Shown one piece after another: positions 494 to 5,957 of a stretch of 6,587 bases of DNA. Position 1 is the stretch's first letter, and every line of letters starts with the position of its first letter. Source of the stretch: a candidate division Zixibacteria bacterium SM23_81 (lineage in GTDB: Bacteria > SM23-81); assembly GCA_001304015.1 (NCBI GenBank), contig LJUY01000084.1, positions 1-6,587 of the forward strand, given 5' to 3'. The position numbers were made by a program, and so were the translations under genes. Below the pieces are notes generated by a model. That model worked only from the letters and a program-made list of their open reading frames with translations, was not told the DNA's origin and ran no database searches.

Positions 494-534
494 ATTGAAT
501 GAAATCAAAAATGAAGAATGCGAAATGAAAAATG
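494..534 (+). repeat. Left inverted arm: degenerate AATG heptamer array
   Basis: On the plus strand ATG triplets at 511, 518, 525 and 532 sit exactly 7 bases apart within A-rich heptamers (509-536), with a further GAATG at 497-501. The segment AAATGAAAAATG (523-534) is an exact inverted match to 895-906, and ATTGAATGA (494-502) matches the complement of 921-929 at 8 of 9 positions. The arm begins 3 bases from the pyrF start codon and ends just before the stop codon of the four-helix-bundle gene. Confidence 0.8.
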
Positions 535-540
535 CAAAAA

Positions 541-897
541 TTAACTTCTCTTGGCTGTAACTATCGATTTCGCCATAATATTAGTCAACTCCATCGATTC
601 CTGAATAAGTGCTATGAGACATCTATCATTATTCGGTAGCAATTTCGTTTTTGCAACTAAGCGCAACCAATAGTTGCATTCCCGAACTTCTTTCAAGACA
701 ATCTGTAATTTGTGTATAAAATCCGCTCGGCTTTCCGCAGCGCAGGCTTCTTCGTAGTTAGCGCCTGCTGAAGTCCCGGATCGTATCAGTTGATTACCGA
801 TATGACGCCCAGCAGCTGTTTTTCTTAATCTACCCACTATCTGGATGACCTCAGCTGAGAGGTCTAGTAGTCGATCCGAGAGGTCATTCTTAGCCAT
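541..897 (-). CDS. Four-helix-bundle protein, 23S rRNA intervening-sequence (S23) family
   Basis: A 118-residue, all-helical protein of the family first found as ORFs inside 23S rRNA intervening sequences and related in fold to the Avd accessory protein of diversity-generating retroelements. The family hallmarks are clear: an N-terminal helix DLSDRLLDLSAEVIQIVGRL (5-24), then GNQLIRSGTSAGANYEEA (34-51), then FIHKLQIVLKEVRECNYWLR (60-79). Length is normal and the frame is intact. Its molecular role is unproven for copies outside rRNA; members form oligomers and carry basic surfaces, so nucleic-acid binding is a reasonable guess only. The ATG at 897-895 is forced by an in-frame TGA two codons upstream, and no Shine-Dalgarno is visible. 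The 3' half of the gene (541-720) is about 36% GC by hand count, against about 68% for a 60-base sample of neighbouring rlpA, consistent with recent arrival. No reverse transcriptase or variable repeat is present, so a retroelement role is not supported here. Confidence 0.92.
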   Translation of the reverse strand: MAKNDLSDRLLDLSAEVIQIVGRLRKTAAGRHIGNQLIRSGTSAGANYEEACAAESRADFIHKLQIVLKEVRECNYWLRLVAKTKLLPNNDRCLIALIQESMELTNIMAKSIVTAKRS

Positions 898-929
898 TTT
901 TCATTTGCACTTTGCATTGGTCATTCAGT
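895..929 (-). repeat. Right inverted arm: degenerate AATG heptamer array
   Basis: Read on the minus strand, the arm carries GAATG, CAATG, AAGTG, AAATG and AAATG with successive spacings of 7, 7, 6 and 7 bases, mirroring the left arm at 494-534. Its inner 12 bases (895-906) pair exactly with 523-534. The central part differs in length from the left arm (14 against 20 bases), so this is an imperfect inverted repeat rather than a clean transposon end. The last ATG of the array is the start codon of the four-helix-bundle gene. The outer edge is 2 bases from the rlpA stop codon. Confidence 0.8.
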
Positions 930-3367: not shown

Positions 3368-4177
3368 TCATCGAATTTCCCTCAGCCGGGCGATGAATAG
3401 AGAGGTGAAAAAGAGAGCGCCGGCGAACAGCACGATGGTCGCCCCAGAGGCCAGATCTAACTGATAAGAGAGGAACAGCCCGAGCACGGTGGAGACCACA
3501 CCGGTGGCCACCGAATAAAAGACCAGCCCACGGTAGTGGTCGGTGAGCTGGCGGGCGGTGGCGGCGGGAAGCACCAGAAGGGCCGATACTAAGACGATGC
3601 CGATGAGTTTGATGGCGATGACGATGGTCACCGCCATGGCCAACAGAAAAAGATAGTAGACAGGAGACACGGCCACCCCACTCACCTGAGCTACCTCCTC
3701 GTCGAAGCTCAGGAAAAGAAGTTCCTTGAAAAGGGAGAGGATCAGGACGAAGACAATGGGCGATAATATCACAACCAGCAACAGGTCTCCTCCAGTAACG
3801 GCCAGGATATTGCCGAACAGGTAGCCGAAGAGGTCGACATTATAGCGGCGGGACAGCCCGATGAAGACGATGCCCAGGGCCATGGTCAGGGAGAAGAAAA
3901 TTCCGATGGCCGTGTCTTCGTGCAGTCGGCCCTGCCGGTTAATGAAACCGATCAACAGGGCCACGGCTCCGGAGAAAATGATGGCCGTAATGGTGGGGTC
4001 AATGCCCAGGAGAAAACCCAGGGCAACTCCCCCGAAGGCGGAATGGGAGATTCCCACCCCGATGAAAGAGAGGCGTTTCAGCACCACGAAAACGGAAAAG
4101 AGGGCGCACAGGCAGGCGATGAGAATCCCTGTTATCAGAGCCCGCTGCATAAACCCCAGCTGAAAGGCCTCAATCAC
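3368..4177 (-). CDS. znuB: Zinc ABC transporter, membrane permease (ABC-3 family)
   Basis: ZnuB-type permeases form the transmembrane channel of high-affinity metal uptake systems in the cytoplasmic membrane. The 269 residues are almost entirely hydrophobic, with about eight transmembrane stretches, including roughly 14-33, 62-79, 91-108, 132-149, 172-188, 189-206, 220-237 and 245-263. ABC-3 family marks are ISHSAFGGVALG (43-54), HEDTAIGI (86-93), FDEEVAQVSGV (158-168, the likely ATPase-contact loop) and LVSALLVLPAATA (196-208). The start is GTG at 4177-4175, preceded by GGAG (4184-4187) with a 6-base spacer. It overlaps the end of znuC by 8 bases, a sign of translational coupling. ATG at 4150-4148 is possible but would lose the overlap and cut the N-terminus. 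Mn- and Zn-type permeases are hard to tell apart, so the zinc call rests on the receptor ZnuA. Confidence 0.93.
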   Translation of the reverse strand: MIEAFQLGFMQRALITGILIACLCALFSVFVVLKRLSFIGVGISHSAFGGVALGFLLGIDPTITAIIFSGAVALLIGFINRQGRLHEDTAIGIFFSLTMALGIVFIGLSRRYNVDLFGYLFGNILAVTGGDLLLVVILSPIVFVLILSLFKELLFLSFDEEVAQVSGVAVSPVYYLFLLAMAVTIVIAIKLIGIVLVSALLVLPAATARQLTDHYRGLVFYSVATGVVSTVLGLFLSYQLDLASGATIVLFAGALFFTSLFIARLREIR

Positions 4178-4949
4178 TATGCTCTCCGATGACTCGATGG
4201 GGAATTTTGCCGTGAACTAACATCTCAACCTCACAGCCATAAACCTTACTCAGGACCTTGCCGTCAAGGACCTCAGTGCATTTTCCGTGGTGGTGGAGCT
4301 TCTGATTGAGACAGGCGATTTCATCTGTGTGGTAGGGGATGACCCCGATGTCATGAGAGACCAGGACTATGGTCAGAGAGAGGACTTCTTTCAGCTTTCC
4401 CAACAGCTGATAAAAAGTCCCCTGGGCTTTGGTGTCAACACCGGAGGTGGGCTCGTCCAACAACAACATCTGGGGGTCACAAGCCAGGGCTCGGGCGATG
4501 AAAACGCGCTGTTGCTCACCCCCGGAGAGATGGCCGATAGGCCGATCTCGCAGATGGATGATCTCCACCGCCTCCAGCTTCTCTAATACCCGACGTCGAT
4601 CCTCGGCCGTGGCTTTATGCCACAGTCCGATCTTGGAGTAGCGTCCCATCAGCACCACATCGAAGACGCTTACCGGGAAGGACAAATCGGCAAAGGCCCT
4701 CTGCGGCACGTACCCGATGATCCCCTTGTTTTTATGATGCCCCGGAGGGTGACCAAAGACCCTCACCTGCCCCCTATCAGGCTTGACCAGGCCCAGGATA
4801 ACGTGCAACAGGGTGGTTTTACCTCCCCCGTTGGGACCGATGAGGCCGAGAAAAGTACCCTGCTGAATGCTCAGGTTGACCTCTCGGAGGATAAAATCGT
4901 GGTTCAGAGATACCCACAGGTCTTTGATATCCACCACCGATGCGTTCAC
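4170..4949 (-). CDS. znuC: Zinc ABC transporter, ATP-binding subunit
   Basis: The ATPase that powers the transporter on the inner face of the membrane. In 259 residues all ABC elements are present and intact: Walker A GPNGGGKT (38-45), Q-loop Gln83 in YVPQ, signature LSGGEQQR (141-148), Walker B MLLLDEP (161-167), D-loop SGVD (169-172) and the switch His199 in LVSHD. A His/Cys-bearing stretch [10 protein letters not shown] (215-224) is typical of the Znu/Mnt/Adc ATPases. The start is GTG at 4949-4947 with GGAGG (4957-4961) and a 7-base spacer, and it overlaps the znuA stop in the four-base GTGA arrangement, so znuA and znuC are surely one message. Alone it could be a manganese or iron ATPase; the receptor upstream decides for zinc. 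Confidence 0.95.
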
Positions 4950-5863
4950 TCCATGGCCTCCCTGATCATCTTCAGATTATACTCCATAAGGCCTATATAA
5001 GAATCTCGCCCGGGCAGATCCGGCCCGCCCAAGGGGTCTAAGATAAGCACCCTGACATTGGCCTCAGAGGCGAGGACCGAGGCGGCACTTGGGTTGAACT
5101 GGGGCTCGGCGAAGACCGCTCGGATCCCGTGATCCTGGATGGTCCGAATTATGCTCTGGAGGTGCTTTGGAGTGGGCTCTCGACCCGGAGATTCCTGGAT
5201 CACGCCCACCTCAACTAGGCCATACCGTCTGGCAAAATAGCTCCAGGCCGGATGAAAGGCCACGTACTCTTTGATTCGAAACTGTCCAGCCGTCTCACGG
5301 ATGTGTTCATCGAGAGCGCGCAACTGTTCTTGGTAAGTGGTCAGGTGTTCTCCATACTCCTGGGAATGCTCTGGGTCCAGATGCATCAGGGCTTGGCCGA
5401 TATTTTCGGCCAGCGATATGGCCACCATGGGATCCAGCCAGACATGGGGATTGCCCAGCCCGTGATCATGGAGATGAGGCTCAGAGCCCTCTTCTTGATG
5501 GGCCGTCATCTGAATAAGCTGAACGCCATCGGCAGCTCTGACCACTGCCGGCGTTTCATCGGCCACGGCGGCGATCAGCTCCTGAGCCCAAAATTCGAGA
5601 CCGGCTCCCACCATGACGAACAGGCGAGTTTTGGCGAATTGGCGAAAGGCCTCCGGAGTGGGCTCAAAAACGTGAGGGCTGGCGCCAGCGGGGATGAGCA
5701 CCTGCACCTCGACCCAATCGCCGCCGACACTTGCGGCGATGTCGGCCAGGGGGAAGATGCTGGCGGTCACTTTGACCTTATCGTTCGAAGACGGCGGGGA
5801 GAAACAGCCCCACAGGAGACCGAGAGAGAGAAAAAGGACTATGGTGATGGCCGGTCTTCTCAC
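4946..5863 (-). CDS. znuA: Zinc ABC transporter, substrate-binding lipoprotein
   Basis: A TroA/ZnuA-family receptor that captures metal outside the cytoplasmic membrane and hands it to ZnuB. Counted from GTG 5863-5861 it has 305 residues. The signal peptide has RR at 2-3, a hydrophobic core and lipobox LWGC, with lipidated Cys20. Metal ligands are in the family positions: His64 (SPHVFEPTP), His140 (NPHVWLDP), His204 (FHPAW) and Asp276 (LDPLGG). Three His ligands, with His rather than Glu at the third, and a short His/acid-rich loop (122-134, His122, 130, 132, 134) point to zinc rather than manganese. For the start, GGAGG (5870-5874) lies 6 bases before GTG 5863 but touches ATG 5869, so GTG is preferred; ATG 5869 would add two residues. 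The frame is open further up to TTG 5944, but that start would fall inside the promoter. It heads a znuACB operon. Confidence 0.93.
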   Translation of the reverse strand: MRRPAITIVLFLSLGLLWGCFSPPSSNDKVKVTASIFPLADIAASVGGDWVEVQVLIPAGASPHVFEPTPEAFRQFAKTRLFVMVGAGLEFWAQELIAAVADETPAVVRAADGVQLIQMTAHQEEGSEPHLHDHGLGNPHVWLDPMVAISLAENIGQALMHLDPEHSQEYGEHLTTYQEQLRALDEHIRETAGQFRIKEYVAFHPAWSYFARRYGLVEVGVIQESPGREPTPKHLQSIIRTIQDHGIRAVFAEPQFNPSAASVLASEANVRVLILDPLGGPDLPGRDSYIGLMEYNLKMIREAME

Positions 5864-5869
5864 CTTCAT

Positions 5870-5874
5870 CCTCC
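5870..5874 (-). promoter_or_regulatory. Ribosome-binding site that decides the znuA start
   Basis: GGAGG on the minus strand lies immediately before ATG 5869-5867 with no spacer and 6 bases before GTG 5863-5861. Spacing strongly favours GTG. Both choices keep the same signal peptide. Confidence 0.6.
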
Positions 5875-5928
5875 ATTTGGCTTGGACAAAGCGGTGATAT
5901 GAGGTTCTCTGGGGGCATGCCTTTTTGA

Positions 5929-5957
5929 AATTTATGAGAAACAAGGGGTTCTGTCAA
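5929..5957 (-). promoter_or_regulatory. Sigma-70-type promoter for znuACB
   Basis: The minus strand carries a perfect -35 TTGACA (5957-5952), a 17-base spacer and TAAATT (5934-5929, four of six matches to TATAAT). Transcription should begin near 5922, leaving a leader of about 55 bases before znuA. The zinc genes can therefore be expressed separately from pyrK. I looked for a Zur-type A+T-rich dyad over the promoter and found none that was convincing, so zinc control is expected from the system but not shown. Confidence 0.7.

Follow-up and report, generated by a model that had tools for sequence, protein, structure and literature searches.

A free-standing 118-amino-acid four-helix-bundle (4HB) gene in candidate division Zixibacteria bacterium SM23_81 sits between rlpA and pyrF with arrays of a 7-bp unit on both sides, which raises the question of whether gene and arrays together form a mobile element and, if so, of what kind. 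The window (the whole stretch of DNA that was analysed, 6,587 nt) is an entire contig (G000:C59) of a 3.07-Mb genome assembled in 99 contigs. Its minus strand carries, in order, an rlpA-family lipoprotein gene (932–1357; TIGR00413, 162 bits), the 4HB gene (541–897) and pyrF (2–490, cut by the window edge; TIGR02127, 182 bits). The complete element, that is, the 4HB gene with its inverted heptamer arrays, occupies 494–929 on the same strand and fills the space from the rlpA stop (932; ~3 bp away) to the pyrF start (490; 6 bp from the ATG), with a GC content of 0.41 within 495–930 against 0.57 on either side. Elsewhere in the window (3368–5944, minus strand), the ORF sequences read as a metal-type ABC transporter set (permease, ATPase and substrate-binding protein), an assignment made from those ORFs only.

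The 4HB protein is a member of the S23/IVP family, scoring 81.2 bits against TIGR02436 (curated cut-off, 24) and 57 bits against PF05635 (cut-off, 33.8). Its AlphaFold (AF2) model (pLDDT 95) has the four-helix fold, and the best PDB matches of the model are the S23-family structures 2RLD and 2GSC (TM 0.81–0.84), followed more weakly by Avd (4DWL). The 4HB gene is the only one encoded between the arrays—the transposase that would define an insertion sequence is absent—and is one of eight TIGR02436 genes in the genome.

On the gene strand, the upstream array (895–928, minus strand) reads AATGACCAATGCAAAGTGCAAATGAAAAATG, with the start codon inside the last unit, and CATTTTTCATTTCGCATTCTTCATT follows the stop codon. 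The downstream array (497–539; AATGAAGAATGCGAAATGAAAAATG on the plus strand) is inverted relative to the upstream one, its pattern is unique in the genome at 0 mismatches, and TRF called a 7/14-bp array at 508–539. The two arrays share an exact inverted core of 12 nt, AAATGAAAAATG at 523–534 and CATTTTTCATTT at 895–906 (both arms on the plus strand). The original prediction had listed ATGs at 511, 518, 525 and 532, a right array mirroring the left, a 12-base exact inverted core, low GC and a tight fit between the neighbouring genes; each of these was recovered, the mirror over 895–928. RNA folding of the window pairs array with array and places the 4HB gene in the loop (z −2.3), and an Rfam search of the window returned no match. 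A perfect run of four AATG at 7-bp steps occurs at one site in the 3.07-Mb genome, and at ≤2 mismatches the only sites are this one, its allele on contig C44 and one place near a Y1 transposase gene. In dinucleotide shuffles, the lag-7 identity of the arrays was equalled in 101/5,000 (upstream) and 5/5,000 (downstream) cases and their inverted match in 38/5,000. Judged alone, the arrays of the window are only moderately non-random, and the argument is therefore carried by comparison, that is, by recurrence across the family.

We compared the upstream flank of 4HB genes with the reverse complement of the downstream flank and counted scores of ≥28 as inverted flanks. Such flanks were present at 100 of the 126 4HB loci with adequate flanks versus 15 of 1,541 random windows, with 35/49 in the genome of the window and its relatives (1/323 random windows of the same DNA) and 65/77 among named loci obtained by a profile scan of genome contigs (14/1,218 control windows). 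The inverted heptamer arrays that were proposed to recur at free-standing 4HB genes do so, whereas AATG, put forward as their signature, gives way to a heptamer specific to each lineage. Most of the eight TIGR02436 genes in the genome of the window themselves have short tandem repeats on both sides, in inverted orientation and each with a different word (GATCGGT, GAGATTC, AATGAAA and so on). Across 109 loci, array identity at lags of 7, 14 and 21 was 0.52, 0.48 and 0.44 versus 0.30 in shuffled sequence, with nothing at other lags; the arrays are strictly of period 7 and span a median of 490 bp from outer end to outer end (interquartile range, 464–525 bp). About one-fifth of the 4HB loci have no detectable arrays. 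Control windows and shuffled sequence rule out chance in A+T-rich DNA, and a metagenome-assembly or binning artefact is ruled out by complete cyanobacterial plasmids, the same architecture being carried by isolate plasmids of Nostoc, Calothrix, Planktothrix and Anabaena.

The elements sit in operon spacers. Both neighbours run in the direction of the 4HB gene at 56 of 81 loci and in the opposite direction at 8; behind an upstream gene of the same direction, a median of 14 bp separates the stop codon from the outer end of the array. Several copies are found within defence loci (G002:C55 (L062), L174, L187, L194 and L175–L177), at cas2–cas4, cas6–cas4 (twice) and cas2–cas1, and Planktothrix plasmids carry one between drmD and a methylase gene. 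At five loci (L147, L160, L134, L140 and L148), the start of the 4HB gene and its array are repeated head-to-tail downstream of the gene, as tandem element copies. A different family arrangement is seen in G011 (contigs C2, C3, C7, C12 and C13), in which 19 low-scoring TIGR02436 matches form divergent pairs ~100–300 bp apart.

Array and protein travel together. The same array is found in 77% of locus pairs at ≥70% protein identity and in ~5% of pairs below 55%; because all pairs taken together give only a weak Mantel correlation (0.13; best of 500 permutations, 0.14), this link resides in the close pairs and is quickly lost beyond them. A tree of the proteins (76 rows) requires at least 37 changes of phylum (minimum possible, 19), and one clade of 4HB proteins (support 100/99) with CCAATATCC-type arrays covers six phyla (Cloacimonadota, Neomarinimicrobiota, Lentisphaerae, Kiritimatiellae, Verrucomicrobia and Armatimonadota), a spread part of which may be due to misbinning, some bins being from one study. 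Within this clade, DNA homology of 84–94% reaches only from ~65–108 bp before the gene to 70–122 bp after it and the contexts differ; the homologous stretch around the gene measures 480–520 bp, and single genomes hold two and three copies. The end of this homology, at the array edges, defines the edges of the element. Close pairs mostly have dN/dS values of 0.03–0.2, and the 4HB protein is therefore retained for function. In G032, a second copy (C4:217353 and 218528; L072) is 98% identical over 259 bp, shares the left end and is truncated within the gene, beside another heptamer hairpin. Carriage by phages was considered and rejected, given that a tblastn search of a phage collection with one 4HB query gave no match and that viral contigs were few.

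Sites without the element were found at two other loci. In G002, the element lies between cas2 and cas4 (named from the translated neighbours); the corresponding site of its congener G003 lacks both the gene and one arm and retains ~35 bp of period-7 sequence, so that from the sequences gain and loss cannot be told apart, one array remaining at the 'empty' site. On three Nostoc plasmids, a DNA cytosine methyltransferase gene, intact on other Nostoc plasmids, is split by the element. This insertion is not clean, as 328 bp of the target is replaced, and no clean insertion with target duplication was seen. The heptamer of the Nostoc element, CAATTCG, is already present in the methyltransferase target at the left junction (L180 2380–2480 compared with L186 1060–1110), by chance, target choice or seeding; a general origin of the unit by copying from the target site, which this junction suggested, is ruled out by the units travelling with the protein. 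In the cas6–cas4 spacer of Anabaena/Dolichospermum, a second record has another repeat in that position.

The locus of the window itself yielded no empty allele in its own genome. Contigs C59 and C44 (L083) hold two rlpA–4HB–pyrF alleles that are ~77–80% identical, through either duplication or mixed strains in the bin; both are filled, the C44 4HB allele being a pseudogene with two in-frame stops, and in the phylum-level relatives G002 and G003 pyrF does not adjoin rlpA. Orthologous sites without the cassette, for which a search had been proposed, were thus found at cas2–cas4 and in the Nostoc methyltransferase gene, and none was found for the site of the window. The idea of a small cassette, mobile or domesticated, that carries no transposase is supported at the level of the family, and the window copy itself is a putative mobile copy.

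Scanning contiguous DNA revealed additional inverted heptamer pairs whose arms are 50–130 bp apart and enclose no gene. In the relative G019, the units of these gene-less hairpins (GATTGCT, AATGGCT and GTCCTGA) are those of its 4HB-bearing elements. Its AATGGCT arrays occupy ~14 sites genome-wide, one of them with the gene (0 for the reversed-pattern control), and its GTCCTG family comprises six gene-less hairpins and one gene-bearing copy, all inverted pairs being of one polarity. For AATGGCT and GTCCTGA, therefore, G019 has gene-less copies with the termini of gene-bearing copies, a MITE-like relationship; gene-less copies of the unit of the window were not seen in its 3.07-Mb genome. Eight 4HB-bearing genomes contained 46 period-7 arrays in 878 kb and 35 genomes lacking the gene contained 5 in 889 kb, in a comparison uncorrected for phylogeny and with unequal amounts of DNA sampled per genome; other periods displayed no such difference. 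One of the five arrays in the 4HB-free set is of low complexity and the rest are in two genomes with no PF05635 match over the cut-off (L334 in G050 and L342 in G066).

On the basis of these results, we consider it probable that the feature in the window belongs to a widespread class of free-standing elements, ~450–520 bp long, that move horizontally and resemble intervening sequences (IVSs), each a stem-loop with a 4HB gene in the loop. The window copy is a typical family member, and the free-standing elements probably work as the IVSs do and are their kin. The array of a lineage-specific 7-bp unit, the 4HB (S23/IVP, Avd-like) gene and the inverted array together make up the stem-loop. In the proposed mechanism, transcription reading through from the operon of the host would express the gene. 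The co-directional placement in operon spacers, ~14 bp behind a stop, fits both read-through expression and toleration of the element as an mRNA hairpin. The 4HB protein, which like its homologues probably forms a pentameric ring that binds nucleic acids, would recognize the hairpin of its own element, as RNA or single-stranded DNA, and would promote hairpin copying or insertion with host enzymes acting in trans. Gene-less hairpins of the same unit would be mobilized too, and slippage may lengthen the arrays and make them drift. We infer hairpin binding and spread by the 4HB protein from its homology to Avd, the co-travel of unit and protein and the genome-wide link between gene and arrays. 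Against this explanation stand the lack of any enzyme in the element able to cut or join DNA, the filled alleles at the site of the window, the one-fifth of 4HB loci with no detectable arrays, the array left at the cas2–cas4 site, the unclean methyltransferase insertion, the period-7 arrays of G050 and G066 and the lack of a phylogenetic correction in the genome-level comparison. More tentatively, the 4HB protein itself might drive a transposase-free and reverse-transcriptase-free spread of heptamer-array hairpins with host replication or repair enzymes, in which case the IVSs of 23S rRNA would be the same phenomenon as the free-standing cassettes, the gene-less hairpins and a large part of the heptamer repeats in bacterial genomes; we regard this wider proposal as possible rather than likely.

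The rival that survives best, and still an unlikely one, is that the element is mobilized in trans by a RAYT-type HUH (Y1) transposase of the host, to which heptamer hairpins would serve as REP-like substrates, the 4HB protein being an accessory or passenger. Y1_Tnp was found in 16/17 4HB-bearing versus 9/24 4HB-free genomes (Fisher p = 0.0003, uncorrected for phylogeny), and a set of gene-less hairpins with only one or few gene-bearing members is reminiscent of a REPIN–RAYT population; like REPIN–RAYT systems and MITEs, these elements are small inverted-repeat units that are present many times over, mostly without the gene. Here, however, the units are heptamer arrays instead of palindromic REPs, and a transposase is absent. 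The ends of 30 Y1_Tnp genes in the same genomes are palindromic REP-type repeats, mostly without period 7, on which ground the arrays were rejected as RAYT transposase ends, and G011 has no Y1_Tnp match though it has many 4HB matches.

Somewhat less probable again is a non-autonomous retroelement, in which the 4HB protein acts as Avd does in diversity-generating retroelements (DGRs) and a reverse transcriptase is supplied in trans. The 4HB fold matches that of Avd in DGR ribonucleoproteins (4DWL and 8UB7; TM about 0.72–0.80), and the similarity between PF05635 and Avd has already been noted (PMC10053308); a stem-loop RNA with the ORF in its loop, the strong operon sense bias and the truncated second copy in G032 also point in this direction. 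The element is nevertheless not a DGR, as it lacks TR/VR and a reverse transcriptase, and the 4HB protein is only 12% identical to Avd. Against supply in trans, RVT_1 has no match in the genome of the window (92.6% complete; none in the window) nor in the multi-copy genomes G003, G004, G019 and G021, and reverse transcriptase and 4HB genes are not associated (5/17 versus 6/24 genomes); movement driven by a reverse transcriptase was therefore rejected for the genome of the window, in which none was found. That the gene is instead domesticated and regulatory, its arrays a fixed, vertically inherited hairpin for the processing or termination of mRNA in the rlpA–pyrF spacer, agrees with the presence of the element in both alleles, its neat stop-to-start fit and purifying selection among family members, but is very improbable given the C44 pseudogene, the unrelated contexts of other copies with homology ending at the arrays and the patchy distribution over phyla.

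The closest known relatives of the preferred IVS-like element are the IVSs of 23S rRNA (S23p/IVP; Coxiella, Leptospira and others), and the class is not an isolated one, as these IVSs have the same anatomy. That of C. burnetii is 428 nt long, with a 28-bp terminal stem, an S23p ORF in the loop and, before the ORF, tandem (GACAGAT)3 heptamers whose number varies between strains (PMC4990558). In both types, complementary termini form a stem whose loop contains an S23-family ORF—in the window, through the 12-nt exact core and the array-to-array fold—and the two share a size of about 430–490 bp, a sporadic distribution and, in C. burnetii, heptamers before the ORF (PMC4990558). A 23S IVS is further characterized by its excision by RNase III. 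The free-standing elements differ in lying between or inside protein genes (rlpA and pyrF for the window copy) instead of in a 23S helix, and in having heptamer arrays as both arms, a heptamer that changes by lineage and gene-less hairpin relatives. In the trnL intron, the P6b repeats are inverted heptamers. Repeat motifs have been described in the P6b stem-loop of this intron (PMC4476775). The heptamer repeats of Beggiatoaceae, cyanobacteria and others (TAACTGA sets) similarly have 7-bp units and are intergenic and patchy over distant phyla, and 'no mechanism is evident' for their spread; they are reported there mostly as direct repeats, with no link to the S23 family in the text searched (PMC4679880).

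S23 proteins, IVSs, heptamer repeats and Avd are known singly; in the literature searched we found no paper that joins them for free-standing genes, and one may exist elsewhere. The origin and purpose of the 23S rRNA IVSs have been in question since 1990 (PMC4990558), and tying IVSs and heptamer repeats to one protein family provides a concrete candidate for each, with culturable genomes and isolate plasmids as testable material. The many genes with no annotation beyond 'four helix bundle protein' gain a context as part of a mobile hairpin element, and this apparent free-standing cousin of the IVSs may account for the heptamer repeats that have lacked an explanation in bacterial genomes.
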